From: Actinopolyspora erythraea
GTDB taxonomy: Bacteria > Actinomycetota > Actinomycetes > Mycobacteriales > Pseudonocardiaceae
Length of the DNA stretch: 64,000 nucleotides
Reading direction: 5' to 3'
Assembly (NCBI RefSeq): GCF_002263515.1
Contig: NZ_CP022752.1
Span: 1,984,001-2,048,000 of the forward strand
Every line of letters begins with the position of its first letter. Within the stretch, counting starts at the first letter, position 1. The translations under genes were made by a program, and so were the position numbers. Positions 2,299 to 61,936 of this stretch are shown piece by piece. A model generated the notes under the pieces. The model made no database searches. It was not told the origin of the DNA and saw only the letters and a list, made by a program, of their open reading frames with translations.

Positions 2299-3537
2299 GT
2301 GCGAATTGCGCTGCTGTCCTACCGAAGCAAGCCGCACAGCGGCGGACAGGGGATCTACGTGCGCCGCCTCAGCAGCGGGCTCGCCGAACTGGGCCACGAG
2401 GTCGAGGTCTTCTCGGGGCAGCCCTACCCGGAACTGGACGACGGAGTGCGGTTGACCCGCGTTCCCAGCCTCGACCTCTACCGCGAGCCGGACCCGTTCC
2501 GCACCCCGCACCCCCGGGAGCTGCGCGGCCCGCTCGACCTGGCCGAACTGGGGATCATGTGGTCGGCGGGGTTCCCCGAACCGCTCACGTTCAGCCTGCG
2601 CGCCGCGCGGATACTGCGCGCCCGGGCCGAGGAGTTCGACGTCGTGCACGACAACCAGTCCCTCGGCTACGGCCTGCTCGGACTGCGCCGAGCCGGAGTT
2701 CCACTGGTGGCCACCGTGCACCACCCCATCACCCACGACCGCCGCGTGGAGCTGGCCGCCGCCAAGGGGTGGCGCAAGCTCGGCGTCCGCCGCTGGTACG
2801 GGTTCCTGCGGATGCAGCGGCGGGTGGCCCGCCGGATACCGCGTGTGCTGACGGTCTCCGAGTCCTCGGCCGACGACATCGTGCGCGACTTCGCCGTCGA
2901 CCGGCGAAACCTGCGGATCGTCCCGCTGGGGGTGGACCCCGAGGTCTTCCGGCCCCCCACCCGCCCCAGAGTGCCGGGTCGGATCGTGGCCATGGCCAGC
3001 GCCGACACCCCGATGAAGGGAATAGGCACCCTGCTGGAGGCGGTGGCCAAGCTGCGTACCGAACGAGCGGTGGAACTGGTGCTGGTCGCCAGGCCGACCC
3101 CCGGTGGGCCCACCGAACGGCTGATCGATGAACTGGCCATCGGGGACGTGGTCCGCACCGTCAGCGGACTCACCGACGCGCGGCTCGCCGAGCTGTTCGG
3201 TTCCGCCGAGATCGCCTGCGTCCCCTCGCTTTACGAGGGCTTCTCGTTGCCGACCGTGGAGGCCATGGCCTGCGGTACCCCACTGGTGGCCAGCAGGGCG
3301 GGCGCCATCCCCGAAGTGGTGGGGGCCGACGGCACCACCGCCGAACTCGTGCCCCCCGGTGACGCCGAAGCGCTCGCCGCCGGGTTGGGAGCGCTGTTCG
3401 ACGCCCCCGAACGCAGGGCCGCGCTGGGGGCGGCGGGCAGGCAGCGGGTGCTCACGCACTACAGCTGGTCCTCGGTGGCCGCGGCCACGGTCGACTGCTA
3501 CGCCGAGGCGATCGAAGCAAGCAGGAAAGGGCGGTGA
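2299..3537 (+). CDS. GT4 family glycosyltransferase
   Basis: 412 residues, GTG start at 2299. The N-terminal Rossmann half has the GT-B glycine loop (KPHSGGQGIYVRRL), as in many GT4 enzymes. The C-terminal half has the donor-binding region with the EX7E motif: E313 in YEGF and E321 at the end of SLPTVE, followed by AMACGTPLVAS. GT4 enzymes are retaining and use nucleotide-sugar donors; donor and acceptor cannot be read from the sequence. No membrane segment is seen. It is followed after four bases by a methyltransferase and then by a toroid protein in an overlapping run, so the three are probably co-transcribed and make or modify one glycoconjugate (inference). Confidence 0.88.
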   Translation: MRIALLSYRSKPHSGGQGIYVRRLSSGLAELGHEVEVFSGQPYPELDDGVRLTRVPSLDLYREPDPFRTPHPRELRGPLDLAELGIMWSAGFPEPLTFSLRAARILRARAEEFDVVHDNQSLGYGLLGLRRAGVPLVATVHHPITHDRRVELAAAKGWRKLGVRRWYGFLRMQRRVARRIPRVLTVSESSADDIVRDFAVDRRNLRIVPLGVDPEVFRPPTRPRVPGRIVAMASADTPMKGIGTLLEAVAKLRTERAVELVLVARPTPGGPTERLIDELAIGDVVRTVSGLTDARLAELFGSAEIACVPSLYEGFSLPTVEAMACGTPLVASRAGAIPEVVGADGTTAELVPPGDAEALAAGLGALFDAPERRAALGAAGRQRVLTHYSWSSVAAATVDCYAEAIEASRKGR

Positions 3538-3541
3538 AGCG

Positions 3542-4259
3542 TTGCTGACGGTGGATTTCGACACGCTCGGGGTACGAGCCGGTCAGCGGGTTCTGGATCT
3601 GGGGTGTGGCGCGGGGCGCCACGCCTTCGAGCTGTACCGGCGGGGGCTTCGTGTGGTGGCCTTCGACCACGACGAAGCCGAGCTGACCGAGGTGTCCGCC
3701 ATGTTCACCGCCATGGAGCAGGCGGGTGAGGTGCCGGAGGGCGCCGAGGCCACCACCGTGCGGGGCGACGTGCTCGACCTGCCGTTTCCGGACGAGTCCT
3801 TCGACCACGTGATCGCCTCGGAGGTGATGGAGCACATCCCCGAGGACGACAAGGCGATGCACGAGCTGGTGCGGGTCCTCAAACCGGGAGGGCGGGTGTC
3901 GGTCACCGTCCCCAGCCGGTTTCCCGAGCGGATCTGCTGGGCGCTCTCCGAGGAGTACCACCGCGTCGAGGGCGGCCACGTCCGGATCTACGACAGGCGA
4001 CAGCTGTTCGGCAGGCTGCGGGCCGCCGGGCTGCGGCCGGTGCACCACCACTACGCCCACGCGCTGCACTCGCCGTACTGGTGGCTGAAGTGCGCGGTGG
4101 GGGTGAACCGCACCGACCACCCGCTGCCCCGGCTGTACCACCGCCTGCTGGTGTGGGACATGCTCAAGGCGCCCTGGATCACCAGGAGCCTGGAGCGGGC
4201 GCTCAACCCGTTGCTGGGCAAGAGCATCGTCACCTACCTCTACAAGCCGGGGGCGACCG

Positions 4260-4267
<8 letters not shown>
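3542..4267 (+). CDS. Class I SAM-dependent methyltransferase (Methyltransf_11 type)
   Basis: About 241 residues. Motif I is VLDLGCGAGRHAFEL near residue 19, followed by an acidic residue in VVAFDHDEAELTE, then GDVLDLPFPDESFDHVIASEVMEHI and the LKPGGRVSVTVPSR strand. The C-terminal third is rich in Trp, Tyr and His (HHHYAHALHSPYWWLK), as in methyltransferases acting on lipid or glycan acceptors. The start is uncertain: TTG 3542 sits 4 bases after the GT4 stop, with GTG 3551 as the alternative. The next gene overlaps its stop, which suggests translational coupling. The target is probably the product of the preceding glycosyltransferase or a precursor of it (inference). Confidence 0.85.
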
Positions 4268-6777
<2,510 letters not shown>

Positions 6778-7421: not shown

Positions 7422-7450
7422 TTGACACCGGACGTGCGGCGTGAAAAATT
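7422..7450 (+). promoter_or_regulatory. Candidate promoter of the acyl-AMP ligase-PKS operon
   Basis: A consensus -35 hexamer TTGACA (7422-7427) is followed after 17 bases by AAAATT (7445-7450), a weaker -10 matching three of six consensus positions. The start codon at 7536 lies 86 bases downstream, giving a leader of about 80 bases. Spacing is ideal; the -10 is imperfect. Confidence 0.5.
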
Positions 7451-7535
7451 CTGCCCGTCGTGGGATTCGGAATTCTCGGTTTTTCGCGTTGTTCGCTGTC
7501 GGGGATCGAGTTCCTCCGCAGCGTGGGAAGGTCTT

Positions 7536-9305
7536 ATGGAATCAACGACCGCGGAGTTCGCGTCGCAGTGTGGTGGGCAGAGCCTGACCGAGTGTCTGGA
7601 CCGCTCCGCGAGGGAGCGACCGGACGCGACCGCGATCACCTTCGTCGACTACGAGGCGAGCGGGGACGGCCTGGCCAGGTCGCTGACCGTCGCCGAACTG
7701 CACCGCCGGGTCCGTGCGGTGGCGTCGTGGACGGCACACCACTGCGGACCGGGGGAGCGGGTGGCGATCCTCGCCCCGCAGGGGATCGACTACGTGGTCG
7801 GCTTCCTGGGAGCCATCCGGGCCGGGACGATAGCCGTCCCGTTGTTCCAGCCCGACATGCCCGGTCAGCGGGGCAGGCTCGCGGCCGTGCTCGACGACTG
7901 CGAACCGGCCGGCGTGCTCACCACCAAGGAGGTGTTCGGCCGGGTCCGCGAGGTACTCGGGCAGCGTGGCTTCGGTGCGCCTCCCGAATGCCTGGCGGTC
8001 GACGCCCCCCAGGAGGACTGGTTCCCCGAGCGACTCCCCGCCCCGGTGTCGGCGGACGATGTCGCCTATCTGCAGTACACCTCCGGTTCCACTCGTGTGC
8101 CCGCTGGCGTGCGGATCACCCACGCCAACGTGGTCGCCAACGCCCGGCAGGCCCTGTCCGCCTACTTCGGTGACCGCGTCGAGGGCGGCGCCGCCGTCAG
8201 CTGGTTGCCGTTGTTCCACGACATGGGGCTGGTGCTCTCCGTGGCGGCGCCCGTGGTGGGCGGAATCAGATCCGTGCTCATGGATCCCACCGCGTTCCTG
8301 CGGCGGCCGGGTCGCTGGCTGCACCAGCTCTCGGCGAACCCGCGCTGCATCACGGCCGCCCCCAACTTCGCCTTCGACTACACCGCGGCCAGGGTGACCG
8401 AGCGTGAGAAGAGCCGCACGAGGCTGGACCGGGTGATCTCGATGATCAACGGCAGCGAGCCGGTGCGGCCGTCGACGGTGGAGCGGTTCAACCGGGCCTT
8501 CGAATCCTGTGGTCTGCGGCCGGAGGCGCACCGTTCCTCGTTCGGGCTCGCGGAGGCGACGGTGTTCGTTTCCACCACCCCGGCCGGTTCCCCGCCACGG
8601 AGCGTTCGATTCGACCGGGATTCCCTCGGGAAGGGGATCGCCGTGGCCGCGGCGGGGAACGCCACCTCGAGCACGCTGGTCTCCTGCGGTCGGCCGCTCG
8701 GGCAGCGGGTCGCGATCGTCGACCCCGAGTCGCACCACCGACTCCCCGACACGACCGTGGGCGAGATCTGGGTGCACGGACCCAACACCGGACAGGGCTA
8801 CTGGAACCGGACGGGCCCGGAGGAGGGCGAGGTCTTCCGGGCGAGGCTGCGCGACCCCGGGGAACTGCCGGAAACCGGATGGCTGCGCACCGGGGACCTC
8901 GGCGTGCGCTACGAGGACGAACTGTTCGTGACGGGAAGGATCAAGGACCTGATCGTCCTCGACGGCCGGAACCACTACCCGCAGGACCTCGAACAGACGG
9001 TGGAACTGCACCCCGCGGTGCGCAAGCACCACACCGCGGCGTTCGCGGTCACCGTCGACGAGACCGAACGAGTGGTGGTGGCCGCCGAGTACTCCCGGTC
9101 GCTGCCGCCCGAACAACGGGACTCCCCCGAAATCAGCGCTGCCCTGCGCGGTGAGATCGCCGCCGCGCACGGCGTGCGGGTGCACGAGGTGCTGCTGCTC
9201 GAACCGGACACCGTTCCCCGCACTTCGAGCGGCAAGGTGGCGCGCGCCGCCTGCAGGCAGCACTACCTGGACGGCGAGTTGGGCCCGGAGAACACACATG
9301 ACTGA
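7536..9305 (+). CDS. Fatty acyl-AMP ligase (FadD32-like FAAL)
   Basis: 589 residues from ATG 7536, preceded by GGGAAGG. The adenylation motif YLQYTSGSTRVPAGV is of FAAL type and close to my memory of FadD32. Further motifs: WLPLFHDMGL, ITAAPNFAFDY, INGSEPVRPSTVERF, SSFGLAEATVFV, TGWLRTGDLG, GRIKDLIVLDGRNHYPQDLE and the C-terminal lysine region PRTSSGKVARAACR. FAALs activate a free fatty acid as acyl-AMP and pass it to an acyl carrier domain, not to CoA. The acceptor is very likely the N-terminal ACP of the PKS encoded next, whose ATG at 9298 overlaps this gene's stop by 8 bases. The pair corresponds to FadD32-Pks13 in mycobacteria (inference from order and motifs). Confidence 0.9.
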   Translation: MESTTAEFASQCGGQSLTECLDRSARERPDATAITFVDYEASGDGLARSLTVAELHRRVRAVASWTAHHCGPGERVAILAPQGIDYVVGFLGAIRAGTIAVPLFQPDMPGQRGRLAAVLDDCEPAGVLTTKEVFGRVREVLGQRGFGAPPECLAVDAPQEDWFPERLPAPVSADDVAYLQYTSGSTRVPAGVRITHANVVANARQALSAYFGDRVEGGAAVSWLPLFHDMGLVLSVAAPVVGGIRSVLMDPTAFLRRPGRWLHQLSANPRCITAAPNFAFDYTAARVTEREKSRTRLDRVISMINGSEPVRPSTVERFNRAFESCGLRPEAHRSSFGLAEATVFVSTTPAGSPPRSVRFDRDSLGKGIAVAAAGNATSSTLVSCGRPLGQRVAIVDPESHHRLPDTTVGEIWVHGPNTGQGYWNRTGPEEGEVFRARLRDPGELPETGWLRTGDLGVRYEDELFVTGRIKDLIVLDGRNHYPQDLEQTVELHPAVRKHHTAAFAVTVDETERVVVAAEYSRSLPPEQRDSPEISAALRGEIAAAHGVRVHEVLLLEPDTVPRTSSGKVARAACRQHYLDGELGPENTHD

Positions 9306-12300
9306 GCACTCGGAGCTCGGCGAGTGGCTGGTGCACCGCATCGCCGAACGCGCCGGCCTGAACCCCGCGCGGATCGAAACCGACAGACCGTTCGACGAGT
9401 TCGGACTCTCCTCCCGCGACGTCGTGGAGCTGTCCGGCGAACTGGAAACCCTGCTGGACAGGTCGCTTCCCACTACGCTGCTGTGGGAGTTCCCGACGAT
9501 CGAGCGGTTGACCGAGGCACTGACCGGCATCGGTTCCAGCACCTCCACGGCGCCCGGCCCCGCCCCCGGTGAACCGATCGCGGTCGTCGGCCTCGGCTGC
9601 CGCTTCCCGGGAGCGACCGGTCCGGAACGCTTCTGGGAGCTGTTGTGCTCCGGCACCGACGCCGTCGGAACGGTCCCCCCGGAGCGCTGGCGGGACTTCG
9701 CTCCCGGGCAGCGGATCGTGCTGGACGAACTTCCCACCTCCGGCGGGTACCTGGACGACGTCGCCGCCTTCGACGCGGAGTTCTTCGAGATCTCCCCGCG
9801 CGAGGCAGAGGTCATGGACCCGCAGCAGCGGTTGCTGCTCGAAGTGAGTTGGGAGGCGTTGGAGCACGCGGGGGTGGTGCCCGAGCGGTTGCGCGGTTCG
9901 GACACCGGCGTCTTCGTCGGGGCCTCCTCGACCGAGTACAGCCACCTGACCACGAGGGACCTCGGATCGGTCGACGCGTGGACCGGTACGGGCGGTGCCA
10001 TGAGCGTGATCGCCAACCGCCTGTCGTACCTGTTGGATCTGCGCGGGCCGAGCATGGCCGTGGACACCGCGTGCTCCTCCTCGCTGGTCGCGCTGCACCA
10101 GGCGTGCGCGAGCCTGCGTTCGGGGGAGAGCCGCACCGCCCTGGCCGGTGGGGTCAACCTCCTGCTGTCCCCAGCGGTCACGGCCAACTTCCACAGCGCC
10201 GGCGCGCTCGCGGCCGACGGGCGGTGCAAACCCTTCGACGCGGCCGCCGACGGCATAGTCCGAGGCGAGGGGTGCGGCGTCGTCGTGCTCAAGCCGCTGT
10301 CCGAGGCCAACCGGGACGGTGACCGGGTGCACGCGGTCATCCGCGGTTCGGCGGTCAACTCGGACGGTCGTTCCAACGGGCTGATGGCGCCGAACCCCTC
10401 GGCCCAGGTGGAGCTGCTGCGTTCGGCCTACTCCGCCGCCGAGCTCGATCCGGGCGTGGTGGACTACGTGGAGGCCCACGGGACGGGAACCCTGCTGGGG
10501 GACCCCATCGAGGCGTCCGCGCTGGGAACCGTGCTGGGGGCCGCGCGCACGTCCGACCGGCCACTGCTGCTCGGTTCGGTCAAGTCCAACCTGGGGCACC
10601 TGGAGGCCGCGGCGGGCATCGCCGGGATCATCAAGGTCGTGCTGGCGATGCGGCACGGTCGGTTGCCAGCCACGCCGCACTACCGCACCCCCAATCCCCA
10701 CATCTCCTTCGAGCGGGAGGGGTTGCGGGTGGTGGAGTCGCCCCGTCGCTGGCCGGAGTACTCCGGCGTCGCCCGCGCGGGGGTGTCCGGTTTCGGCTTC
10801 GGCGGGACCAACGCGCACGTGGCCCTGGAGTCCTGGCCGGAAGCACCCGTCGGTGCGGACGAGGACACCGGACCGCACACGCTGTTCCTGTCCGGTGACA
10901 CCGAATCGCGGCTGCGGCAGACGGCGGCACGGTTGGCCGAACGGCTGCGGGACCCGGGACAGCACGACACGTCCCTCACCGACATCGCCCACACCCTGCT
11001 GCGCCACCGCGGCCAGCGGTGGCGACGCGGTGCGGTGGTGGGGCGGGACCGCGCGCACCTCGCCGAGGGGCTGGACGCGCTCGCCACCGGGGACACCGCC
11101 GCCGGGGTGGTGCGTGGCCACACCGGGGCAGGCAGCGCCCCTGTCTGGGTGTTCTCCGGCTACGGCTCGCAGTGGCCGGGGATGTGCCGCGAACTGTTGC
11201 GCGACGAACCCGCCTTCGCGGAGTCACTGCGGCGGAACGACACCGAGTTCCGAGCCGTGGCCGGATTCTCGTTGTACGAGGCGCTGGCAGCGGGCGAGGA
11301 GCTGCACGGGTTGTACCGGACCCAGCTCGGGCTGTTCGGTACCCAGCTCGCGCTCGCGGAGCTGTGGCGTTCCCGGGGAGCGAGTCCGGGAGCCGTCATC
11401 GGGCACTCCATGGGTGAGGTGGCCGCAGCCGTGGTCGCCGGAGCTCTGGACCACGGATCCGGGTTGCGGGTCATGGCGACCCGAACCGGGCTGCTGGCCG
11501 AGATGGAGTCCTCCGGTGGGGGAGCGATGGCGGTGCTGGAGGGTTCGCCGGAGGAGGTCGACGAACTGGCCGACTGGTTCCCCGGTGTGGTGGTGGCCGT
11601 GCACACCTCCTCCCGGCGGTGCACGGTGGCGGGCCCGGCCGACGAGGTCGAGCTGATAGCCGGGCACTTCCTGCGGCACGACCGCGTGGCGCGGGTGCTC
11701 GACGTCTCCGGGGCGGGGCACACCGCCGCCGTGGATCCGCTGCTGGACAGGTTGCGCGCCGAGCTCGCCGACCTCGCGCCCGCCGTGCCGGGAACCACCG
11801 TGTACAGCACGGTCGAGCGGGACCCGGCGTGGGTCCCTGCGTTCGACGCCGACTACTGGGCGCGGAACCTGCGCCACCCGGTGCTGTTGGACCGGGCCGT
11901 GCGGGCGGCGGTGGCCGACGGGTTCGACACCTTCGTCGAGGTGTCCCCGCACCCGATAGTCACGGGCGGGATCGAGGAGTCGGTCCTGGACTCCGGGGCG
12001 CGGGAACCGGTACTGGTGTTCACCTCCCGGCGGGACAGCGACGAGACGGCCACCTTCCGCGAGAACCTCGCCCGGCTGTACGTCAACGGACGGATCCCCG
12101 AACCGCTCGGGTACCCGACGGGCGAGATCGCCGAGCTGCCGCTACCGGTCTGGCAGCACGAGCGGTACTGGACCCCCGTGGACAGGACGAGCGCGACGTC
12201 GGGAGAGCACCGGCTGCTGGGGCACCACGTGGAACTGCCGGACGGGCGGCACGCCTGGCAGGGCGAGATCGGGACGAACTCGCTTCCCTGGCTGGGTGAC

Positions 12301-15300
12301 CACCGGGTGCACGACACACCGGTCCTGGCCGGTACCGCCTGGCTGGAGATGGCGCTGGCCGCCGCGGGCCGGGCGCTGGGCGTCGAACCGGACCGCCTGG
12401 TGGTCGGCGGGCTCGAACTGCGGGACATGCTCGTGCTCGCCCCGGAGCTGACGGTCACCACGGTGGCAACACCCCATGACGCCGGGGTGACCGTCGAGCT
12501 GCACGGCCGGTCCACCGCGGGCGGTTGGCAGCGCCACGCCGTCGCCGAGGTGTCGCTCGCTTCGTCCGAGGAGCCCGCGCACGAAGAGCTGGTCCGGGGG
12601 GGTGAGTCCGGTCGGGACGGGACCGAACCCGTGCGGTTGTACCCCGCGCTGCGCGCGGCCGGGCAGGAGTACGGCCCGGCCTTCCGTCCCGTGCGGCGGG
12701 CGAGCGCCGGGGAGGGTACGGCGGTGGCGGAACTCGCGTTGCCCGCCGAGGCGGGCAGCTCGCTGGAGTTCCTCGCGCATCCGGTGCTCACCGACGGCTG
12801 CCTGCAGACCCTGGTCGCGGCGGCGATCGGGACGAACGGGCCCGCGGGGGTCGAGCTCTTCGTGCCCGTGGAGTTGCGGCAGGTGCGGCTGTTCCGCCGG
12901 GTCCCCTCCCGGGTCCGTTGCCACGGTGCGCTGGCCACGACCTCGACCGGGCCGGAGGTGACCGGATCGCTGTTCGTTACCGACGAGCACGACCGTGCGG
13001 TGCTGCGGATCGGCCTGGTCAGAGCCCGTCGCATGGGCGCCACTCCGGTACCGCGCGACTCGTCCGGAGCGGGGCTGCGGCTCTGCTGGGAGGACTCCTC
13101 CGCACCGGATCCGGAGCGAGGGGACGGGGACTGGTTGCTGTTCGGCGAGTCCGCCGAGCTGGCCGAACGGCTGCGAGGTCGTGGACGGCGAGTCACCCGT
13201 GCCGCGCCGGGCGAGGACGGCGGGCTGCCGGAGCGGTTCGACGAGGTGGAGCGGTTCCTGCGCGAAGCCACCGCTCCCGCCGGGGTGGTGGTCGCCGTCG
13301 AAGGGGCGGTGGAGACCCTCGACGAGTGGTTCGCGGCGGCCCGGCGGCGGCTGCCGCGACTGGCCGGGTTGCTGCGCGTGCTGGCCGAGCACGACGGTCC
13401 TCCCGTCAGGCTGTGGCTGGTCAGCCCTTCGCCCGCCGGTGCTGAACTGCGGGCGCTGGTTCGGGTGCTGACGTTCGAACATCCCCGCGCACGCGTCTCG
13501 CTGCTGGAGGGGGCGGAGGCGGACTCGCTGGCCGACGAGCTGTGCGCCGACACCCCCGAGGACGACGTTCACCGGGACGGGCGAGGTCGCCGAGTGGCCA
13601 GGCTGCGCCGGGTCCCGCTGGAACGGGCGGAGACCACCACCGCGGTGCGCCCGGAGGCCTACGTCATCACCGGTGGGCTGGGCGGGCTCGGCTACACCTT
13701 CGCCAGGTGGCTGGCCGAACGAGGTGCCGCGCGTGTGGTGCTCAACGGCAGGAGCGATCCCTCCGGGGCTGTCGAGGACGACATCGAACGGCTCCGCCGG
13801 GCCGGAACCGAGGTGCTCGTGGTGACCGGCGACATCGGGGAGCGGGGAACGGCCGAACGGCTGGTGAACGCCGCCACCTCGGGCGGAACCGCGCTGGGGG
13901 GTGTGCTGCACGCGGCGGGGGCGCTGGACGACGGTCCCTTCACCGAAACGACCGAGGAGGCCGTGGAACGGATCTGGCACGCCAAGGTCCAAGGCGGCCT
14001 GCGGCTGCACGAGGCCACCCTGCGGTTCACCCCGGACTGGTGGGTCGCCTTCTCCTCGGCCGCGGCGCTGCTCGGGTCGCCGGGGCAGGCCGCCTACGCC
14101 ACCGCCAACGCCGCGCTGGACGACCTGGTGCGGTGGCGTCGTGAGCTGGGCCTGCCGGGGACCAGTGTGCAGTGGGGAGTGTGGGGCGAGGTGGGGGCGG
14201 CCAGCGAGACGTTCACCGGTGTGCTCCGCCCGTTGTCCACCGAGACCGGGACCGAGGCGTTCGAGGCGGTGCTGGGGGAGGACGAACCGGTGACGGGAGT
14301 CGCCTGGCTCGACGCGCACCAGGCGGGCCGGACGTTCCCGGAGCTGACCGCGCGCCCGTTCTTCCGGCACGTGGTGGGCGAGCCATCCGCTCCGGCGGAC
14401 GGGGTGGACCCGGAACGGCTGCGCGAGCTCGAACCGGAGGAGGCGCTGCGCACGGTGACTTCTACCCTGGCACGGCTGCTTGGGGAGATCATCGGCACGG
14501 CGGCGGGCGATGTGGACCCCGAACGCCCGCTCACCTCGTTCGGGCTCGACTCGCTGATGGCCATGCGGGCGCGCAACGCGGTGGAGCGCGAGTTCGGCAC
14601 CAGCGTCGCCCCGGCCGTGCTGCTGCGCGGGTGCACCACGAGCGAGCTGGCGGCGCGACTGCTCACCGCTCTCGGAATCGACGGTGCTCCGCCGTCCACC
14701 CCTTCCACCGAGACACCGCCCTGGCGCGAGGTCGGGCCGAGGGACGCCACCGAACGCTGGCTGGCCCACCTGTGGCGCGAAGTGCTGGGACTGGAGCACG
14801 TGGGGGTGGAGTGGGACTTCTACCGGCTGGGTGGTGACGAGGTCCTGGCGGAGAAGGTCGCCTCGGCCGTCCGGGAACGACTCGGCACCGAGGTCCCCGG
14901 GCTGTTCGAACGGCCCACGATCGAACGGATGGCGGATCTCGTCCGTGAGCCGTTCGAGACCTCCGAAGGCCCCGTTCGCACGCTCCGCGCAGGCGGGAGC
15001 GCCACCCCGTTGTTCCTGTTTCACCCGGCGGGTGGGCCCACCAGCGTGTACCAACCCCTGATCGAGCGGCTCGGCGAGGAGCAGCCCTGCTACGGCATGG
15101 AGCGGCTGGACCAGTACGACACCGTTCCGGAGAAGGCCGCCCACTACACGAGCCTGATCCGTGAGATCCAACCCGACGGGCCCTACCGCCTGGGTGGCTG
15201 GTCCTTCGGCGGGTGCCTGGCCTTCGAGACGGCACGGCAGCTGGCCGATCGGGGAGCCGAGGTGGAGGTGGTGGTGCTCATCGACTCCATCCTGCCGCTG

Positions 15301-15795
15301 CCCGCGCCGGAGCTCTCCGAAGGGGAACTGGTCACCGGGCGTTTCCGCCGGTTCGTCGAGCACATCGAGCACACCTACGGGGTCCCGCTCCCGGTCTCGA
15401 CCGAGGAACTGGCGGAGTTCGACGAGCACGAGCAGATGCGGCGCGTCATGGCGGCGTTGGCGGACGAGGAGCTCGGCATCGGCGAGGGAGTGCTGCGACA
15501 CCAGTACACCTCCTACGTGGACGCCAGGATCGCGGAGCGCTACGAGCCCGGTCGCTACGAAGGTCCCGTGGTGCTCTACCGCGCCGAGGAGGCCGAGAGC
15601 ACCACCACCGCGCTCGACCCCCGCTACCTGCGTACGGACGACGCGCTCGGCTGGGACGAGTTCGTCGACGACCTGGAGGTCGTGCGGGTGCCCGGTGATC
15701 ACCTCTCGATGATCGACCCACCCCACGTCGATGTCATGGGCGATCACCTCGGCCGACTGCTCGGCACCGGCGACAGCGGCGAAGGCAGGGAGTGA
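9298..15795 (+). CDS. Type I polyketide synthase, Pks13-like condensase with added DH and KR
   Basis: 2165 residues. Order: ACP (GLSS, Ser39); KS (Cys259 in DTACSSS, His394, His434); AT (Ser704 in GHSMGE, His808 in SGAGH); DH (His1002; Asp1166 in DGCLQ); KR (TGGLGGLG 1458-1465, LDD 1543-1545 as in B-type KRs, Tyr1600); ACP (Ser1752 in FGLDSL); an NRPS-like carrier with Asp-Glu at 1847-1848 where the phosphopantetheine Ser should be; thioesterase (Ser1969 in GWSFGG, Asp1996, His2135). The TE resembles that of Pks13 (HPAGG, then a TSY region) and its triad spacing of 27 and 166 equals Pks13 Ser1533/Asp1560/His1699. No ER domain. Predicted role: condense the acyl chain loaded by the upstream ligase with a carboxyacyl-CoA, reduce and perhaps dehydrate the beta-keto group, and release by TE. 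The product is probably an alpha-branched lipid (inference). Confidence 0.92.
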   Translation: MTEHSELGEWLVHRIAERAGLNPARIETDRPFDEFGLSSRDVVELSGELETLLDRSLPTTLLWEFPTIERLTEALTGIGSSTSTAPGPAPGEPIAVVGLGCRFPGATGPERFWELLCSGTDAVGTVPPERWRDFAPGQRIVLDELPTSGGYLDDVAAFDAEFFEISPREAEVMDPQQRLLLEVSWEALEHAGVVPERLRGSDTGVFVGASSTEYSHLTTRDLGSVDAWTGTGGAMSVIANRLSYLLDLRGPSMAVDTACSSSLVALHQACASLRSGESRTALAGGVNLLLSPAVTANFHSAGALAADGRCKPFDAAADGIVRGEGCGVVVLKPLSEANRDGDRVHAVIRGSAVNSDGRSNGLMAPNPSAQVELLRSAYSAAELDPGVVDYVEAHGTGTLLGDPIEASALGTVLGAARTSDRPLLLGSVKSNLGHLEAAAGIAGIIKVVLAMRHGRLPATPHYRTPNPHISFEREGLRVVESPRRWPEYSGVARAGVSGFGFGGTNAHVALESWPEAPVGADEDTGPHTLFLSGDTESRLRQTAARLAERLRDPGQHDTSLTDIAHTLLRHRGQRWRRGAVVGRDRAHLAEGLDALATGDTAAGVVRGHTGAGSAPVWVFSGYGSQWPGMCRELLRDEPAFAESLRRNDTEFRAVAGFSLYEALAAGEELHGLYRTQLGLFGTQLALAELWRSRGASPGAVIGHSMGEVAAAVVAGALDHGSGLRVMATRTGLLAEMESSGGGAMAVLEGSPEEVDELADWFPGVVVAVHTSSRRCTVAGPADEVELIAGHFLRHDRVARVLDVSGAGHTAAVDPLLDRLRAELADLAPAVPGTTVYSTVERDPAWVPAFDADYWARNLRHPVLLDRAVRAAVADGFDTFVEVSPHPIVTGGIEESVLDSGAREPVLVFTSRRDSDETATFRENLARLYVNGRIPEPLGYPTGEIAELPLPVWQHERYWTPVDRTSATSGEHRLLGHHVELPDGRHAWQGEIGTNSLPWLGDHRVHDTPVLAGTAWLEMALAAAGRALGVEPDRLVVGGLELRDMLVLAPELTVTTVATPHDAGVTVELHGRSTAGGWQRHAVAEVSLASSEEPAHEELVRGGESGRDGTEPVRLYPALRAAGQEYGPAFRPVRRASAGEGTAVAELALPAEAGSSLEFLAHPVLTDGCLQTLVAAAIGTNGPAGVELFVPVELRQVRLFRRVPSRVRCHGALATTSTGPEVTGSLFVTDEHDRAVLRIGLVRARRMGATPVPRDSSGAGLRLCWEDSSAPDPERGDGDWLLFGESAELAERLRGRGRRVTRAAPGEDGGLPERFDEVERFLREATAPAGVVVAVEGAVETLDEWFAAARRRLPRLAGLLRVLAEHDGPPVRLWLVSPSPAGAELRALVRVLTFEHPRARVSLLEGAEADSLADELCADTPEDDVHRDGRGRRVARLRRVPLERAETTTAVRPEAYVITGGLGGLGYTFARWLAERGAARVVLNGRSDPSGAVEDDIERLRRAGTEVLVVTGDIGERGTAERLVNAATSGGTALGGVLHAAGALDDGPFTETTEEAVERIWHAKVQGGLRLHEATLRFTPDWWVAFSSAAALLGSPGQAAYATANAALDDLVRWRRELGLPGTSVQWGVWGEVGAASETFTGVLRPLSTETGTEAFEAVLGEDEPVTGVAWLDAHQAGRTFPELTARPFFRHVVGEPSAPADGVDPERLRELEPEEALRTVTSTLARLLGEIIGTAAGDVDPERPLTSFGLDSLMAMRARNAVEREFGTSVAPAVLLRGCTTSELAARLLTALGIDGAPPSTPSTETPPWREVGPRDATERWLAHLWREVLGLEHVGVEWDFYRLGGDEVLAEKVASAVRERLGTEVPGLFERPTIERMADLVREPFETSEGPVRTLRAGGSATPLFLFHPAGGPTSVYQPLIERLGEEQPCYGMERLDQYDTVPEKAAHYTSLIREIQPDGPYRLGGWSFGGCLAFETARQLADRGAEVEVVVLIDSILPLPAPELSEGELVTGRFRRFVEHIEHTYGVPLPVSTEELAEFDEHEQMRRVMAALADEELGIGEGVLRHQYTSYVDARIAERYEPGRYEGPVVLYRAEEAESTTTALDPRYLRTDDALGWDEFVDDLEVVRVPGDHLSMIDPPHVDVMGDHLGRLLGTGDSGEGRE

Positions 15796-15801
15796 TCCAC
15801 G

Positions 15802-17373
15802 ATGGCCGACGAACCCCGTGGCACGGCGGAACGCATCGACGATCTCGAACGCAGGCGCGCCGAAGCGGTCTCCGAGGCCGACGAGGCGGCGGCGGCCAAG
15901 CAGCATCCCAGGGGCAAGCACACCGCCCGGGAACGCATCCGGCTGCTGGTGGACGAGGGCTCGTTCGTCGAGGTGGGCGAGTTCGCGCTGCGTCGCGGCG
16001 CCTCGTTCGGTGCCGAGGGGACCCCTCCCCACGGCGACGGCGTGGTGACCGGATACGCCACGGTGGACGGCAGGCGGGTCTGCCTCTTCTCGCACGACTT
16101 CACCACTTTCGGCGGAAGCATGGGAGAGGTCTTCGGGGAGAAGGTCCTCAGGATCATGGACATGGCCATGAAAGCGGGCTGTCCCGTCATCGGCATCAAC
16201 GACTCCGGTGGGGCACGGATCCAGGAGGGGGTCGTCTCGCTCGCCTACTACGCGGAACTGAGCAGGCGCAACTCCAAGGCGTCCGGCGTGGTGCCCCAGA
16301 TATCGGTGATCATGGGGCCGTGCGCCGGTGGTGCCGTCTACACACCCGCACTGACCGATTTCACCGTGATGGTGGACCGGACCTCGCGCATGTTCGTCAC
16401 CGGCCCCGACGTGGTCCGCTCCGTGACGGGGGAGAGCGTCTCGGCCGAGGAGCTCGGCGGGGCGGAGGTCAACGGCAGCGTCTCCGGCAACGCCCACTAC
16501 GTCGCCTCGGACGAGGCCGACGCGTTCGACTGGGTCCGCGCCCTGCTGACTTTTCTGCCCCCCAACAACCTGACCGCCCCGCCCGAGTGCCCGGCAGCGG
16601 AGACGGCCGTTCCCGCCACCGACCTCGACGCCGTGGTACCCGATTCCCCCAACCGGTCCTACGACATGCGACGGGTGCTGGCGGCCGTGCTCGACGAGGG
16701 GGAGCTGCTGGAGGTGCACTCCGCGTTCGCGCCCAACATCCTGTGCGGTTTCGGCAGGCTGGGAGGGCACAGCGTGGGCGTGGTCGCGAACCAGCCGCTG
16801 TGGCAGTCGGGGATAATCGACATCGACGCCTCCGAGAAGGCCGCGCGTTTCGTGCGGTTCTGCGACGCGTTCAACATCCCCCTGCTCACCTTCGCCGACG
16901 TTCCCGGCTACCTCCCCGGCAGGGAGCAGGAGCAGCGGGGCGTCATCAGACGCGGCGCCAAGCTGATCTACGCCTATTCGGAGGCCACCGTTCCCAAGAT
17001 CACGGTGGTGACCAGGAAGGCCTACGGTGGTGGCTACGCCGTGATGGGGTCCAAGCACCTCGGCGCCGACGTCAACCTGGCCTGGCCCACCGCCGAGATA
17101 GCGGTCATGGGCGCGGAGGGGGCGGTCGAGCTGCTGCACCGCGACGAGCTGTCCGAGGCCGCCGCCAACGGGGTCCGCGACACGGTGCGGGCGAAACTCG
17201 TGGCGGAGTACCGCGCCACCATGACGACCCCTTACGTGGCCGCCGAGCGCGGGTACGTGGATTCGGTGATCAGACCGTCCCGGACACGTGAACGGTTGGT
17301 CGAGGCGTTGCGGATGCTCGAGGCCAAACGGGAGGAGTCCCCGCCGAAGAAGCACAGCACGATGCCGCTGTGA
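15802..17373 (+). CDS. Acyl-CoA carboxylase beta subunit (carboxyltransferase, AccD/PccB family)
   Basis: 523 residues, ATG six bases after the PKS stop, with GGGAG upstream. Biotin-dependent carboxyltransferase marks: HPRGKHTARERIRLLVDEGSF, INDSGGARIQEGV, MGPCAGGAVYTPALTDF, then in the second half DIDASEKAARFVRFCDAFN, FADVPGYLPGREQE, AYGGGYAVMGSKHLG and the family-typical end KKHSTMPL. It transfers carboxylate from biotin on a separate alpha subunit, not in this window, to acyl-CoA. Position after the ligase and PKS matches accD4 after fadD32-pks13 in mycobacteria, where it supplies a carboxylated long-chain extender. Whether this one takes long chains or propionyl-CoA cannot be told from the sequence. 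Confidence 0.92.
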   Translation: MADEPRGTAERIDDLERRRAEAVSEADEAAAAKQHPRGKHTARERIRLLVDEGSFVEVGEFALRRGASFGAEGTPPHGDGVVTGYATVDGRRVCLFSHDFTTFGGSMGEVFGEKVLRIMDMAMKAGCPVIGINDSGGARIQEGVVSLAYYAELSRRNSKASGVVPQISVIMGPCAGGAVYTPALTDFTVMVDRTSRMFVTGPDVVRSVTGESVSAEELGGAEVNGSVSGNAHYVASDEADAFDWVRALLTFLPPNNLTAPPECPAAETAVPATDLDAVVPDSPNRSYDMRRVLAAVLDEGELLEVHSAFAPNILCGFGRLGGHSVGVVANQPLWQSGIIDIDASEKAARFVRFCDAFNIPLLTFADVPGYLPGREQEQRGVIRRGAKLIYAYSEATVPKITVVTRKAYGGGYAVMGSKHLGADVNLAWPTAEIAVMGAEGAVELLHRDELSEAAANGVRDTVRAKLVAEYRATMTTPYVAAERGYVDSVIRPSRTRERLVEALRMLEAKREESPPKKHSTMPL

Positions 17374-17626: not shown

Positions 17627-18859
17627 TCAGTCGGCCAGCCAGTCCTCGGTGTCACCGGAGAGCATGTTCGAGGCCCGCAGCACTATCTCCATGTCGAAGC
17701 GTGATTCCGGGTCGTGCAGTGCCTCGCCGAACAGCTCGTCGAGCTGCCGCAACCGGTAGCGAACCGTCTGCGGGTGCACCCGTAGACGCTGGGCGATCTC
17801 GGGAGCGCCGCCGCGGGTCTGCAGCCAGCTCAGCAGGGTGGCGGCCAGTCGGGCGCGTTGTTTCGGGCGCAGTCCGTTCAGGGGGGACAGTCGTTGTCTG
17901 GCCAGTTCCTTGATCAGGTGTTCGTCCTGCAGCAGCAGGATGCTGGAGAGGTCCTCGTGGCAGCGGTTGACGTGCTGGTCCGGCCACACGCCCGAGCGGA
18001 TCAGCCCCATCATCCTGCGGCACCAGCGCAGCGATTTGCCCGCCTGGTCGAGCGGGACCGGTGAACCGACGACCACCCGCCATCCGGCAAGCTCCGTCTC
18101 CCAGTCGATCTCGTCAGGTTCCCCGCGGTCGCTGGGCAACAGCACGTGCGGCTCGACGCACTCCAGATCGACCAGGGCGTTCCAGCGCGACAGCGGGTTG
18201 TTGGTTCTGGTGTGGGGCTCGTCGTACCGCTCCAGCGCCGCCACGGTCACCTGGCGCGGGAGGTGCCACTGCGCGGTGACCGCGGATTCCTCGATGACCC
18301 GTTGTGCGGGTTGCGGCTCCGAGACCAGCAGTTCCAGCAGTCGCCTGCGCCTGCGTGCCAGGGTTCCGGCCGCGCGTGCCTGCGCGGCGGCGTAGCCTTC
18401 CACCGCCAGGGCGGTCAGTTCGTCGATGTGCGCGAAGATCGCCTCACCGAGCAGCAGCGTGGTGCGCGGTGCCAGGCGTATCCGCTCGCCGATGCCCGCG
18501 ACCCGTCGCCACGCCAGCCGGGCACCGATCCGGTAGGCGGCCTGCAGGCTGTCGAGGCTGCGCCCTTCCCGCATCTCGGCCTTGCCCAGTGCGCGATGTA
18601 CCTCGGCGCAGCGCCGCGGCGGTGTACCGGGGTCGGCGATCCGGTCGACGAACCTGGTCAGCGCTTCCTCGATGCCGCGCCGTATCGCGTGCACGTAGTG
18701 CTGGTCCATCGGGCGGGCGTACTCGGGGATCCGCCGCTGGATCTCGGTGAGGATCTGGGTCGCCAGGCTCGGGATCTCGGGGCGCAACAGGGTCGCGAGA
18801 TTGTCGGGGAGCGCTGCCCACAGTCTGGTGGACTCGGTATTGTTGGCCAGTCTCGGCAT
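17627..18859 (-). CDS. PucR-type transcriptional regulator
   Basis: 410 residues; the ATG at 18859 is preceded by GGGAGGG. The C-terminus carries the PucR helix-turn-helix: TLLSWLQTRGGAPEIAQ, then RLRVHPQTVRYRLRQLDEL. The middle (residues ~150-330) resembles the GGDEF-like/CdaR-type ligand region, and the N-terminal ~130 residues are helical with a conserved look (LRPEIPSLATQILTEI). Members of this group include FasR, the activator of fatty-acid synthesis genes in Streptomyces. It faces the carboxylase gene tail to tail, so it is not part of that operon. Adjacency makes control of the lipid locus or of fatty-acid supply a fair guess only. Confidence 0.82.
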   Translation of the reverse strand: MPRLANNTESTRLWAALPDNLATLLRPEIPSLATQILTEIQRRIPEYARPMDQHYVHAIRRGIEEALTRFVDRIADPGTPPRRCAEVHRALGKAEMREGRSLDSLQAAYRIGARLAWRRVAGIGERIRLAPRTTLLLGEAIFAHIDELTALAVEGYAAAQARAAGTLARRRRRLLELLVSEPQPAQRVIEESAVTAQWHLPRQVTVAALERYDEPHTRTNNPLSRWNALVDLECVEPHVLLPSDRGEPDEIDWETELAGWRVVVGSPVPLDQAGKSLRWCRRMMGLIRSGVWPDQHVNRCHEDLSSILLLQDEHLIKELARQRLSPLNGLRPKQRARLAATLLSWLQTRGGAPEIAQRLRVHPQTVRYRLRQLDELFGEALHDPESRFDMEIVLRASNMLSGDTEDWLAD

Positions 18860-29280: not shown

Positions 29281-31185
29281 GTGGTGGCGACGAACGGGCA
29301 GCGGACGGAGTCCGGTCCTGAGGAACAGCAGCCGGACACGCTGCGCAAGGTGAACCGTGTCGTGATCCGGTTCGCCGGGGACTCCGGTGACGGTATGCAG
29401 TTGACCGGCGACCGGTTCACCTCGGAGGCGGCCGCGTTCGGCAACGACCTGGCGACGCTGCCGAACTACCCGGCCGAGATCCGCGCCCCAGCCGGGACCC
29501 TGCCGGGCGTGTCGAGCTTTCAGCTGCACTTCGCCGACTACGACATCCTCACCCCGGGCGACCGGCCGGACGTGCTGGTGGCGATGAACCCGGCGGCGCT
29601 CAAGGCCAACCTCGGCGACCTCCCGGCCGGGGCGACCGTGGTGGTCAACACCGACGAGTTCACCAAGCGGAACCTGAAGAAGGTGGGCTACGAGCAGTCC
29701 CCGCTGGAGACCGACGAACTGGACCGGTTCACGGTCCACCGGGTCGCGATGAGCGAACTCACCAAGGGGGCCGTGGCCGAGACGGGGCTGACCCGCAAGG
29801 AGGCCGAGCGCTGCAAGAACATGTTCGCGCTCGGGCTGTTGTCCTGGATGTACCACCGTCCCACCGACAACACCGAGCGTTTCCTGCGCGAGAAGTTCGC
29901 AGGTAAGCCCCAGGTCGCGGAGGCGAACCTGCTGGCGTTCCGGGCGGGGTGGAACTACGGGGAAACCACTGAGTCGTTCGCCGTGGCCTACGAGGTCGAG
30001 CCAGCCAGCCTGCCCGAAGGTACCTACCGGCAGGTCACCGGCAACCTCGCCCTGGCCTACGGTCTGGTGGCGGCGGGGCAGCGCAGCGAGCTGCCGGTGT
30101 TCCTCGGCAGCTATCCGATCACTCCGGCCTCGGACGTGCTGCACGAGATGGCCAAGCACAAGAACTTCGGCGTGACCACCTTCCAGGCCGAGGACGAGAT
30201 CGCGGGAGTGGGAGCGGCGCTGGGGGCTTCCTTCGGCGGTTCCCTCGGGGTGACGACCACCTCCGGGCCGGGGCTGGCGCTGAAGTCCGAGACGATCGGA
30301 CTGGCTGTGGCCCTGGAGCTGCCGATGCTGATCTGCGACATCCAGCGCGGCGGCCCCTCGACGGGACTGCCGACCAAGACCGAGCAGGCCGATCTGCTGC
30401 AGGCGCTGTACGGACGCAACGGCGAGTCACCGGTGCCGGTGCTGGCGCCGCGCTCCCCCTCGGACTGCTTCGACATCGCCATGGACGCCGCGCGGATCGC
30501 GCTGACCTACCGCACCCCGGTGCTGCTGTTGTCGGACGGAGCCACCGCCAACGGTTCCGAGCCCTGGCTGATCCCGGACGTGTCCGAACTCCCGGACCTG
30601 CGCGTGAGCTTCGCCGACTCCCCCAACGCCCCGGACGGTTCCGAGGAGTTCTGGCCCTACCAACGTGACCCGCGGACCCTGGCGCGCGAGTGGGCGGTCC
30701 CCGGTACCCCCGGCCTGGAGCACCGGGTCGGGGGCCTGGAGAAGCTGGACGGCAAGGGCAGCATCTCCTACGACCCGGACAACCACGACGCGATGGTGCG
30801 GCTCCGGCAGCGCAGGATCGACGGCATCGAGGTGCCCGACGTGTCGGTCGAGGACCCGGACGGGGACGCCCGGGTCCTGGTGCTCGGATGGGGCTCGTCC
30901 TACGGGCCGATCGGTGCCGCCTGCCGCAGGTTGCGGGCGCGCGGCATGTCGGTCGCCCAGACGCACCTGCGGCACCTCAACCCCATGCCGGGCAACCTCG
31001 GTGAGGTACTGCGCCGTTATGACAGGGTCGTGGTGCCGGAGATGAACATGGGGCAGCTTGCGATGCTGCTGCGGTCGCGGTACCTGGTGGACGCCCAGTC
31101 CTACACCAAGGTGGCGGGCCTGCCGTTCCAGGCCGAGGAGTTGGAAAACGTGCTGTCCGATGTGGTGCAGGGAGTCGAGCTGTGA
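29281..31185 (+). CDS. korA: 2-oxoacid:ferredoxin oxidoreductase, alpha (gamma-alpha fusion) subunit
   Basis: 634 residues, GTG 29281 with AAGGGA upstream. The N-terminal ~200 residues are the gamma domain (VVIRFAGDSGDGMQLTGDRF). The alpha domain follows with VFLGSYPITPASDVLHEMA, TFQAEDEIAGVGAALGASF, TTTSGPGLALKSE, QRGGPSTGLPTKTEQADL and a C-terminal domain ending in RVVVPEMNMGQLAMLLRSRYLVDA. With KorB it forms the thiamine-diphosphate enzyme that converts 2-oxoglutarate (or another 2-oxoacid) to acyl-CoA with reduction of ferredoxin, bypassing the 2-oxoglutarate dehydrogenase step. GTG of korB overlaps its stop by 4 bases. No ferredoxin gene lies beside it. Confidence 0.92.
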   Translation: MVATNGQRTESGPEEQQPDTLRKVNRVVIRFAGDSGDGMQLTGDRFTSEAAAFGNDLATLPNYPAEIRAPAGTLPGVSSFQLHFADYDILTPGDRPDVLVAMNPAALKANLGDLPAGATVVVNTDEFTKRNLKKVGYEQSPLETDELDRFTVHRVAMSELTKGAVAETGLTRKEAERCKNMFALGLLSWMYHRPTDNTERFLREKFAGKPQVAEANLLAFRAGWNYGETTESFAVAYEVEPASLPEGTYRQVTGNLALAYGLVAAGQRSELPVFLGSYPITPASDVLHEMAKHKNFGVTTFQAEDEIAGVGAALGASFGGSLGVTTTSGPGLALKSETIGLAVALELPMLICDIQRGGPSTGLPTKTEQADLLQALYGRNGESPVPVLAPRSPSDCFDIAMDAARIALTYRTPVLLLSDGATANGSEPWLIPDVSELPDLRVSFADSPNAPDGSEEFWPYQRDPRTLAREWAVPGTPGLEHRVGGLEKLDGKGSISYDPDNHDAMVRLRQRRIDGIEVPDVSVEDPDGDARVLVLGWGSSYGPIGAACRRLRARGMSVAQTHLRHLNPMPGNLGEVLRRYDRVVVPEMNMGQLAMLLRSRYLVDAQSYTKVAGLPFQAEELENVLSDVVQGVEL

Positions 31186-32243
31186 CGACGAATCTGGGAC
31201 TTCCCACGATGGGTGGGCTGGCCGGGGTACCCGCCGCCGACGAGGAGTACTCGGCCAAGGACTTCACCAGCGACCAGGAGGTCCGCTGGTGCCCCGGATG
31301 CGGCGACTACGCCGTGCTGGCCGCGGTGCGCGGTTTCCTGCCTGAGCTCGGCATCAAGCGGGAGAACACCGTGTTCGTCTCCGGGATCGGCTGCTCGGCC
31401 CGCTTCCCCTACTACATGAACACCTACGGGATGCACTCCATCCACGGCCGGGCCCCGACCATCGCCACCGGTCTGGCGACCACGCGCCCCGACCTGTCGG
31501 TGTGGGTGGTCACCGGCGACGGCGACGGGCTGTCCATCGGCGGCAACCACCTGATCCACGCGTTGCGGCGCAACGTCAACATCACCGTCCTGCTGTTCAA
31601 CAACAGGATCTACGGGTTGACCAAGGGGCAGTACTCGCCGACCTCGGACCAGGGCATGGTCACCAAGTCCACCCCGGCCGGCTCCGTGGACACCCCGTTC
31701 AACCCGGTCTCGCTCGCGCTGGGAGCCGAGGCCAGTTTCGTGGCCCGCACCCTGGACTCCGACCGCGCACACCTGACCGAGACCCTGCGGGCCGCGGCCC
31801 AGCACCGCGGTTCGGCGCTGGTGGAGATCTACCAGAACTGCCCCATCTTCAACGACGGTGCCTTCGACGTGCTCAAGGACGCCGACGAGAAGCAGCGCAG
31901 GCTGATCCAGCTGCGACACGGCGAGCCCGTCACGTTCGGACCGGAGGACGAGCGCTTCGGGGTGGTTCGTGACGAGCGGGGCGAGCTCCGGGTGGCCAAG
32001 CTCACCGAGGTGGACGAACGGGACCTCGTGGTGCACGACGCCCAGCGCGCCGACACCTCCCACGCCTTCGCCCTCTCGCGGCTCGGCGGCCAGGACCTCG
32101 ATCCCACCGTGACCGGCGTCTTCCGCGCCGTCGATCGCCCCACCTACGACGACCAGGCCAGGCAGCAGCTCGACGAGGCCGCCCAGCAACGTCCCGCCGA
32201 CCTGCAACAGCTGCTCACCGGGCGCGACACCTGGACAATCTGA
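31182..32243 (+). CDS. korB: 2-oxoacid:ferredoxin oxidoreductase, beta subunit
   Basis: 353 residues. TPP and [4Fe-4S] subunit: VRWCPGCGDYAVLAAVR gives two of the cluster cysteines, SGIGCSARFPYYMNTYG a third, VVTGDGDGLSIGGNHLIHA is the TPP-binding GDG region, and FNNRIYGLTKGQYSPTS the magnesium-binding NN part. YQNCPIFND follows. The GTG start overlaps the korA stop, so the subunits should be made in equal amounts. A short palindrome (GAGGGATCCCTC, 32265-32276) follows the stop. Confidence 0.93.
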   Translation: MTTNLGLPTMGGLAGVPAADEEYSAKDFTSDQEVRWCPGCGDYAVLAAVRGFLPELGIKRENTVFVSGIGCSARFPYYMNTYGMHSIHGRAPTIATGLATTRPDLSVWVVTGDGDGLSIGGNHLIHALRRNVNITVLLFNNRIYGLTKGQYSPTSDQGMVTKSTPAGSVDTPFNPVSLALGAEASFVARTLDSDRAHLTETLRAAAQHRGSALVEIYQNCPIFNDGAFDVLKDADEKQRRLIQLRHGEPVTFGPEDERFGVVRDERGELRVAKLTEVDERDLVVHDAQRADTSHAFALSRLGGQDLDPTVTGVFRAVDRPTYDDQARQQLDEAAQQRPADLQQLLTGRDTWTI

Positions 32244-54403: not shown

Positions 54404-54460
54404 CAGGCCGTCGAGTACGAAGAATAATCGAAGCAACAAGCAGTGAGGTGAAGATCAGCC

Positions 54461-55663: not shown

Positions 55664-55688
55664 CAGCCGAATACGCGACGTGTCGCCG

Positions 55689-55727: not shown

Positions 55728-55811
55728 GGCGAGCAAAGCCAGGTTCGCTCATCCACGACCGCGGGCCGGTGTCCGGACACCGACGCCGGCCCTGGTGAAG
55801 GAGTTTTCCCA

Positions 55812-56786: not shown

Positions 56787-56806
56787 AGCGTTCGGAAGGC
56801 AGCGTG

Positions 56807-60472: not shown

Positions 60473-61936
<1,464 letters not shown>

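Follow-up and report, generated by a model that had tools for sequence, protein, structure and literature searches.

We describe a locus of Actinopolyspora erythraea that probably belongs to a mycolate-like system for lipid synthesis and transfer. The system, a homologue of fbp-fadD32-pks13-accD4 and probably of its ancestral type, would make an alpha-branched, beta-reduced acid. The locus lies in a 64,000-nucleotide stretch of contig NZ_CP022752.1 (positions 1,984,001 to 2,048,000; this whole stretch is called the window, and its numbering is used below) within a genome that forms a single contig of 5.24 Mb. It consists of three genes, which encode a fatty-acyl-AMP ligase (FAAL), a type I polyketide synthase (PKS) and an acyl-CoA carboxylase carboxyltransferase (AccD). 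The genes, their domains and catalytic residues, the kinship with the mycolate enzymes and the co-occurrence with a mycolyltransferase homologue are observed in the sequences; from these we predict all of the chemical steps, the branch length, the acceptor and the role of a transporter.

The three genes form a co-directional trio (7536-17373) in the order fadD32-pks13-accD4, as a preliminary description of this DNA had claimed. Their Pfam domains agree with this: AMP-binding in the first; ketoacyl-synt, AT, PKS_DH_N plus PS-DH, KR, three PP-binding stretches and thioesterase in the second; and carboxyl transferase in the third. The FAAL start given in that description, a TTG at 7422, is better replaced by the ATG at 7536, and the PKS starts with the ATG at 9298, overlapping the end of the FAAL gene by 8 bases. 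The best NCBIfam model for the PKS is that of Pks13 (the equivalog NF040607, 1402.9 bits), below its cut-off of 2100. The window PKS has the complete Pks13 order of N-terminal acyl carrier protein (ACP), ketosynthase (KS), acyltransferase (AT), ACP, psiACP and Pks13-type thioesterase (TE). However, Pks13 has only a pseudo-dehydratase and no ketoreductase, whereas the window PKS carries, between AT and ACP, the extra dehydratase (DH) and ketoreductase (KR) that had been noted before, both with catalytic residues. The psiACP, a third ACP-like domain before the TE that was absent from the preliminary description, also occurs in Pks13 (PMC9210659, PMC9900942).

The claim that the TE triad is spaced identically to that of Pks13 holds, with steps of 27 and 139 positions from one member to the next; the Pks13 triad is Ser1533/Asp1560/His1699 (PMC5509550). 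When the TE was compared by sequence with the PDB, the seven best sequences were all Pks13 (E 1.2e-50) and the best non-Pks13 entry scored E 1.9e-22, which bears out the proposed kinship. We also compared catalytic columns between 32 Pks13 proteins (30 loci from genomes of a second family in the order, plus L123 and L109, the latter included for its tree position; L and G numbers denote our loci and genomes) and the relatives of the window PKS, here called the family. The Ser-His-Arg set of the AT is kept in all 32 Pks13 and all 85 family proteins, and the AT motif is GASH in 23 and GAGH in nine of the Pks13 proteins, GAGH being that of the window PKS. The window DH keeps its catalytic His and Asp; its motif, HxxxDxxxxA, has an Asp at +4, as PpsC does in an alignment, and Ala for Pro at +9. 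Given that the catalytic residues of the KR are intact, a beta-hydroxy product is likely. The KR had been called B-type; its LDD motif is indeed present, but LDD was rejected as a family trait, since the first Asp occurs in only 21 of 75 family KRs.

In a KS-AT tree of 74 rows (near-copies thinned; L130 gave no row), Pks13 and the window PKS stand together and apart from the modular modules of the same genome, which answers the earlier question of whether the KS belongs with ordinary modular PKSs. The FAAL matches the fatty-acid--AMP ligase model PRK05850 with 579 bits (cut-off 775) and the FadD32 model NF038339 with 544.6 bits, not reaching its cut-off of 975, and in a tree covering 16 locus ids FadD32 forms a separate clade. 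In a tree covering 14 locus ids, the locus AccDs fall on the AccD4 side (Shimodaira-Hasegawa-like approximate likelihood ratio test, SH-aLRT, 87), yet outside the clade of AccDs encoded beside pks13; near-copies were thinned in both trees. The next AccD group, sister to the locus AccDs plus AccD4, is taken here as AccD5/PccB. The position of AccD and the shared AT motif suggest a long branch in the product, and the presumed AccD5/PccB sister leaves room for a short one.

The system extends well outside Actinopolyspora. A TE profile search of named genomes gave 554 confirmed loci, and we used the best 80, among which L109 is a Pks13 locus. These 80 span Actinopolyspora, Saccharopolyspora, Amycolatopsis, Actinokineospora, Saccharothrix, Kibdelosporangium and Crossiella, and also Frankia and its kin, Streptosporangiaceae, Nocardiopsis, a few Streptomyces and Solirubrobacterales. 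The closest relative of the window PKS, from Actinopolyspora xinjiangensis, is 95% identical over the protein and 97% over ACP-TE. In an ACP-TE search, the 120 best of 2044 matches (E<=0.001, 8000 scored) had Actinopolyspora, other Pseudonocardiales, one Streptomyces and one Parafrankia as named sources, and precomputed Pfam KR and DH were apparently present on all of those 120. Profiles built from 23 family members detected DH and KR in most of the 80 loci. Three loci from Solirubrobacterales/Patulibacter (L067, L075 and L076), with FAAL, PKS and AccD, have a DH without a detected KR and would need a reductase in trans, and L089, L108 and L110 have a KR without a detected DH. Neither domain was detected in L066, L084, L088, L093, L099, L102 and L105 (Streptomyces, Amycolatopsis, Actinomycetospora); these seven PKSs have a Pks13-like minimal architecture and sit apart from Pks13 in the KS-AT tree. 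From this pattern, DH and KR have apparently been lost repeatedly. The neighbours at the 80 loci include an MFS transporter (43/80), a cutinase (10/80) and an MMPL protein (8/80).

The system also goes with a homologue of the mycolyltransferases, of which the preliminary description said nothing. A PF00756 protein lies beside 56 of the 80 loci by neighbour clustering and beside 63 by direct search. The best PDB match of the Actinokineospora copy is the corynebacterial PS1 (E 1.3e-49), followed by Cmt1 and Ag85A/B. Three alignment columns, which we take to be the Ser-Glu-His triad of Ag85, carry Ser in 78/78, Glu in 71/78 and His in 78/78 of the homologues, and each of the three in 30/31 of the enzymes from mycolate producers (counts from alignment columns; stricter motif regex counts were discarded). 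Among 33 PKS matches picked from the tops of the lists, 28 have the homologue no more than 15 kb from the TE, and the five distant ones are all from Actinopolyspora. In seven of nine mycolate producers (G031, G118, G129, G266, G314, G361 and G376), the best match to it is about 4-8 kb from pks13. A tree of the homologues (97 of 121 rows after thinning of near-copies, midpoint root) separates the PKS-locus enzymes from those of mycolate producers, with support of 99 on both sides, and places two other rows, L142 and L150, on the PKS-locus side.

Next, we examined co-occurrence by genome, with thresholds that we placed by eye where the ranked scores show a gap (TE E<1e-50 for the PKS, E<1e-43 for the homologue). 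Among 150 genomes of the same family as A. erythraea, 45 carry the PKS, and the homologue is found in 45/45 of these and in 18/105 of the others (p 5.9e-24). For the class, we took 388 genomes, removed 3 of the same family and 35 of the mycolate family, and scored the best few candidates in each of the remaining 350; the TE is present in 23, and the homologue occurs in 22/23 of these as against 14/327 of the rest (p 2e-24). The genomes behind both p-values are related and not independent. Within genera, the identities of the KS and of the homologue are correlated (r 0.925; 270 pairs, of which Amycolatopsis supplies 210; 0/2000 permutations), which indicates that the PKS and the homologue travel together. 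Separately, we noted close homologues without a family PKS in G133, G255, G363 and others of the class, and in G399, G405 and others of the same family as A. erythraea.

The genome of A. erythraea has one such homologue, at 1,125,249, which is 62% identical to the Actinokineospora query and lies 0.87 Mb from the PKS. Directly upstream, after a gap of about 4 bases, is an MFS gene whose relatives sit in other loci. Thus, the cassette is present in this host, split in two pieces. Five of six Actinopolyspora genomes have both PKS and homologue, and the sixth, G463, has neither; none of the four AccD-type matches in G463 falls among the locus AccDs in the tree. The host genome also encodes an Emb-type arabinosyltransferase (PF04602, E 3.1e-192; among 14 control genomes, only Corynebacterium glutamicum gave a match), in line with a review passage that gives arabinogalactan as present and mycolic acids as absent in Actinopolysporales (PMC6194230).

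We also asked how this PKS is related to Pks13 by descent. In the 74-row KS-AT tree, the Pks13 rows form a separate clade (100) nested in the DH-and-KR family, and the window PKS falls outside that clade. A careful tree of 46 rows, likewise thinned of near-copies, supports the whole family with 98/93, and the forks that put Pks13 above two DH-and-KR clades with 93/93 and 98/97. We take the other outside rows of both trees, by their domain order, to be mycocerosic acid synthase (MAS)-like and mycobacterial modular PKSs. The linker between AT and the second ACP of Pks13 (163-203 residues, 31 sequences) was then compared with family profiles by hhalign, in which each E-value refers to a single comparison. 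It matches the AT-KR segment of the family with a probability of 97.9 over 122 columns, and the KR part with 0.1. After removal of the generic post-AT part, its match to the family DH scores 97.0 (E 8.3e-11), and the controls reach at most 0.4 (20 column-shuffled profiles), 1.35 (reversed) and 0.61 (five other actinobacterial DHs). The stretch with the catalytic His of the family DH is a gap in the Pks13 alignment. When the DH half was searched against the PDB as a single sequence, Pks13 was not among the matches; the relic is visible only in the profile-profile comparison. A 2024 study by cryo-EM and AlphaFold describes the same linker region as a pseudo-dehydratase that corresponds to the N-terminal half of a DH, with no source named there for it (PMC11649247). 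Given this match, loss is most likely the direction of change: Pks13, the mycolate condensase, would descend from a DH-bearing ancestor of this family's kind. A KR in that ancestor would follow from the tree and not from any relic. The KS-AT tree suggests that Pks13 is nested in the DH-and-KR family, and a sister position is also compatible with it. That Pks13 was stripped down from such an enzyme is more likely than that it served as the template for one.

On this basis, a pathway can be proposed, with its step order taken from the published Pks13 route. The FAAL would adenylate a fatty acid and load it on the N-terminal ACP, from which the chain would pass to the KS. AccD, together with a biotin subunit encoded elsewhere, would carboxylate a second acyl-CoA, to be placed by the AT on the C-terminal ACP, and the KS would perform a single decarboxylative Claisen condensation. 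The KR would reduce the beta-ketone in cis, so that a separate CmrA-like reductase would not be needed, and the DH could dehydrate the product. A sugar or polyol would then receive the alpha-branched beta-hydroxy or alpha,beta-unsaturated chain from the Pks13-type TE. After export of the resulting ester, for which the MFS protein at 1.12 Mb is a possible carrier in the host genome, the secreted-looking homologue (1.125 Mb) would shift the acyl chain to its final acceptor. Arabinogalactan would not be the sole acceptor, because the system occurs in Streptomyces and Frankia, which are not known to have it. In the published route, as outlined in PMC9900942, FAAL, ACP, KS, AccD, AT and TE act in this order and CmrA reduces later. 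The alpha-branched, beta-reduced or unsaturated lipid of the preliminary description is a plausible product.

Several observations weigh against the proposal of a mycolate-like system. AccD was recognized at 37 of the 80 loci and FAAL at 56, both undercounts, as one long open reading frame was kept wherever frames overlap. The Ala for Pro is the single departure of the window's DH motif from the norm, and some relatives have only part of the DH or none, so dehydration by the window DH is uncertain and may not happen. An SH-aLRT of only 87 and the presumed AccD5/PccB sister qualify the placement of AccD, and GAGH and the AccD kinship leave the branch length unfixed. In Actinopolyspora the homologue lies apart from the PKS locus, and MFS transporters occur widely. 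Two of the nine mycolate producers (G205 and G290) have their best match away from pks13, and one of the 23 class genomes (G284, with locus L122) has FAAL-PKS-AccD and an MFS gene and no homologue that we could find, the sole such case. The esterase homologue of the PKS-negative genomes (18/105 and 14/327) implies other uses of the enzyme. Only 9 of the 35 mycolate-family genomes pass E<1e-43, and this threshold therefore marks the present clade and not all mycolyltransferases. With respect to descent, a topology with Pks13 as sister group of every other member passes the approximately unbiased (AU) test at the 5% level (p 0.069), and FadD32 takes a sister and not a nested position in the FAAL tree (SH-aLRT 89, with one long outgroup row).

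A bolder version of our proposal, which we regard as rather unlikely, is that Actinopolyspora and many Pseudonocardiales have a proto-mycomembrane, in which a new mycolate-like lipid from the DH-and-KR condensase is put on the arabinan or on a trehalose-like sugar by the PS1-type transferase, and that mycolic acids arose when DH and KR were stripped from such a synthase. If this is true, its alpha-branched, beta-reduced or alpha,beta-unsaturated chemistry would escape the standard mycolic-acid test.

We also considered the possibility that the product is a secreted sugar ester with a short branch, and judge it improbable to a similar degree. The AT would take methylmalonyl-CoA or a short alkylmalonyl-CoA from a PccB-like AccD, the KR would give a 2-methyl-3-hydroxy acid, the TE would esterify C6 of glucose as in glucolypsin, and the homologue would be a glycolipid acyltransferase of secondary metabolism. 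The presumed AccD5/PccB group is sister to the locus AccDs plus AccD4, and the loci occur in Streptomyces, Frankia and Kibdelosporangium, in some of which arabinogalactan is not expected. Glucolypsin itself carries iso-branched C18 chains with a C2 methyl and a C3 hydroxyl on C6 of glucose (PMC4365757). Actinopolyspora sp. A18 also appears there, as producer of a surface-active compound whose structure is given as undetermined. However, the locus AccD groups with AccD4 and not with the presumed AccD5, the AT residues follow Pks13, and a single open-access literature search aimed at it gave no glucolypsin gene cluster for comparison.

It is much less probable that this PKS is a common enzyme of secondary metabolism that has borrowed its Pks13-type TE and whose link with the homologue would be incidental or reflect decoration or self-resistance. 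The homology with the mycolate locus reaches beyond the TE to FAAL, ACP, KS, AT, the DH relic, ACP, psiACP, AccD and mycolyltransferase, and the mycolyltransferase homologue is almost always inherited along with the PKS, even though the family is patchy (45/150 genomes of its own family), its KS-AT groupings cross genera as biosynthetic clusters do, and the Pks13 cut-off is not reached. The insertion of DH and KR into a Pks13-like ancestor, with a linker that is DH-like by chance or through general PKS architecture, draws on the AU value and the FAAL tree and is very improbable, being largely refuted by the hhalign score of 97.0 against controls of 1.35 or less, the independent pseudo-dehydratase call (PMC11649247) and the careful KS-AT tree.

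What we report is thus apparently the mycolate condensation-and-transfer system in an older, self-reducing form. According to a 2018 review, the precise origin of the mycomembrane is a mystery, and mycolic acids, FAS-II aside, appear only after the mycolate-order node (PMC6194230). Our results suggest a condensation-and-transfer core of greater age and wider distribution than that order, give a likely source for the pseudo-dehydratase of the drug target Pks13, and point to bacteria of soil and salt lakes as organisms for direct tests of the ancestral chemistry. They also predict a family of envelope or surface lipids in many Pseudonocardiales. In the open-access literature, including PMC12159101, PMC7413640 and PMC13324839, we found no paper on this family or on the mycolyltransferase link outside the mycolate order, which agrees with the earlier view of an undescribed lipid system.

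The features of the locus are listed in Table 1. A cluster of the PucR-type regulator is found at 30 of the 80 loci, including all five named Actinopolyspora. Upstream, the genes at 4260-5363 and a GNAT gene at 6217-6777 form clusters confined to the five Actinopolyspora loci, and a glycosyltransferase and a methyltransferase at 2299-4267 lie beyond the reach of the related-locus flanks.

Table 1. Features of the locus in window coordinates
Feature	Position	Strand	Evidence
FAAL (FadD32-like, 589 aa)	7536..9305	+	Pfam PF00501; NCBIfam; FAAL tree
Type I PKS (P0001, 2165 aa), ACP-KS-AT-DH-KR-ACP-psiACP-TE	9298..15795	+	Pfam, NCBIfam
N-terminal ACP, Ser39; predicted acceptor of FAAL acyl chain	9310..9522	+	Ser in 32/32 Pks13, 85/85 family ACPs
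KS, Cys259/His394/His434	9571..10842	+	All three in 32/32 Pks13, 85/85 family; KS-AT trees
AT, Ser704/His808/Arg729, motif GAGH	11140..12102	+	Alignment columns
DH, His1002 and Asp1166; probable counterpart of Pks13 pseudo-DH	12175..13062	+	Family His 63/74, Asp 58/74; hhalign
KR, Ser1586/Tyr1600/Asn1604, LDD motif	13615..14217	+	Family Ser 73/75, Tyr 74/75, Asn 74/75
C-terminal functional ACP, Ser1752	14440..14667	+	Ser in 32/32 Pks13, 85/85 family
psiACP, serine-less, Glu1848 at Ser position	14731..14967	+	Ser absent in 32/32 Pks13, 70/75 family
Pks13-type TE, Ser1969/Asp1996/His2135	14983..15747	+	Triad in 32/32 Pks13, 85/85 family; PDB search
AccD (523 aa)	15802..17373	+	PF01039, 620 bits; AccD tree
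PucR-type regulator (HTH_30), possible locus regulator	17627..18859	-	PF13556

Elsewhere in the window, a methyl cycle is encoded in a row at 52541-63002 (+): a 620-aa protein that contains two methyltransferase regions, followed by S-adenosylmethionine synthetase, MetH-like methionine synthase, S-adenosylhomocysteine hydrolase and methylenetetrahydrofolate reductase. The 620-aa protein presumably resembles a fused glycine/sarcosine-dimethylglycine methyltransferase for betaine synthesis. Two adjoining genes at 29281-32243 (+) resemble the alpha and beta subunits of 2-oxoacid:ferredoxin oxidoreductase (POR/POR_N, thiamine pyrophosphate enzyme).

Among known systems, Pks13-FadD32-AccD4 is closest to the present one. 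The two share the gene order, the ACP-KS-AT...ACP-psiACP-TE frame, the TE triad and its spacing, the AT Ser/His/Arg with G-A-(S/G)-H, an AccD on the AccD4 side and, near most relatives' loci, a mycolyltransferase homologue. They differ in that the window PKS has a full DH and an active-looking KR in cis, whereas Pks13 has a dead half-DH and no detected KR; in addition, the window proteins score below the Pks13 and FadD32 NCBIfam cut-offs, the host group is described as free of mycolic acids, and in Actinopolyspora the transferase homologue lies elsewhere. This homologue resembles PS1/CmytA, Cmt1 and Ag85 in PF00756, the presumed Ser-Glu-His columns, GTHSWPYW around the His and, by eye, a secreted-looking N terminus. 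However, it stands on a separate side of the tree (99), and its open frame has 365 aa, compared with 490-697 aa at mycolate loci. MAS, an iterative KS-AT-DH-ER-KR-ACP enzyme (ER, enoylreductase; PMC9210659), likewise combines KS-AT with DH and KR and is the top PDB match of the full-length PKS overall, but it has no N-terminal ACP, psiACP or TE, and the MAS-like rows fall outside the family in the KS-AT trees. Finally, CmrA-dependent maturation of mycolates also reduces the beta-keto group of an alpha-branched acid, whereas in A. erythraea this reduction would fall to the KR of the PKS itself, before release.

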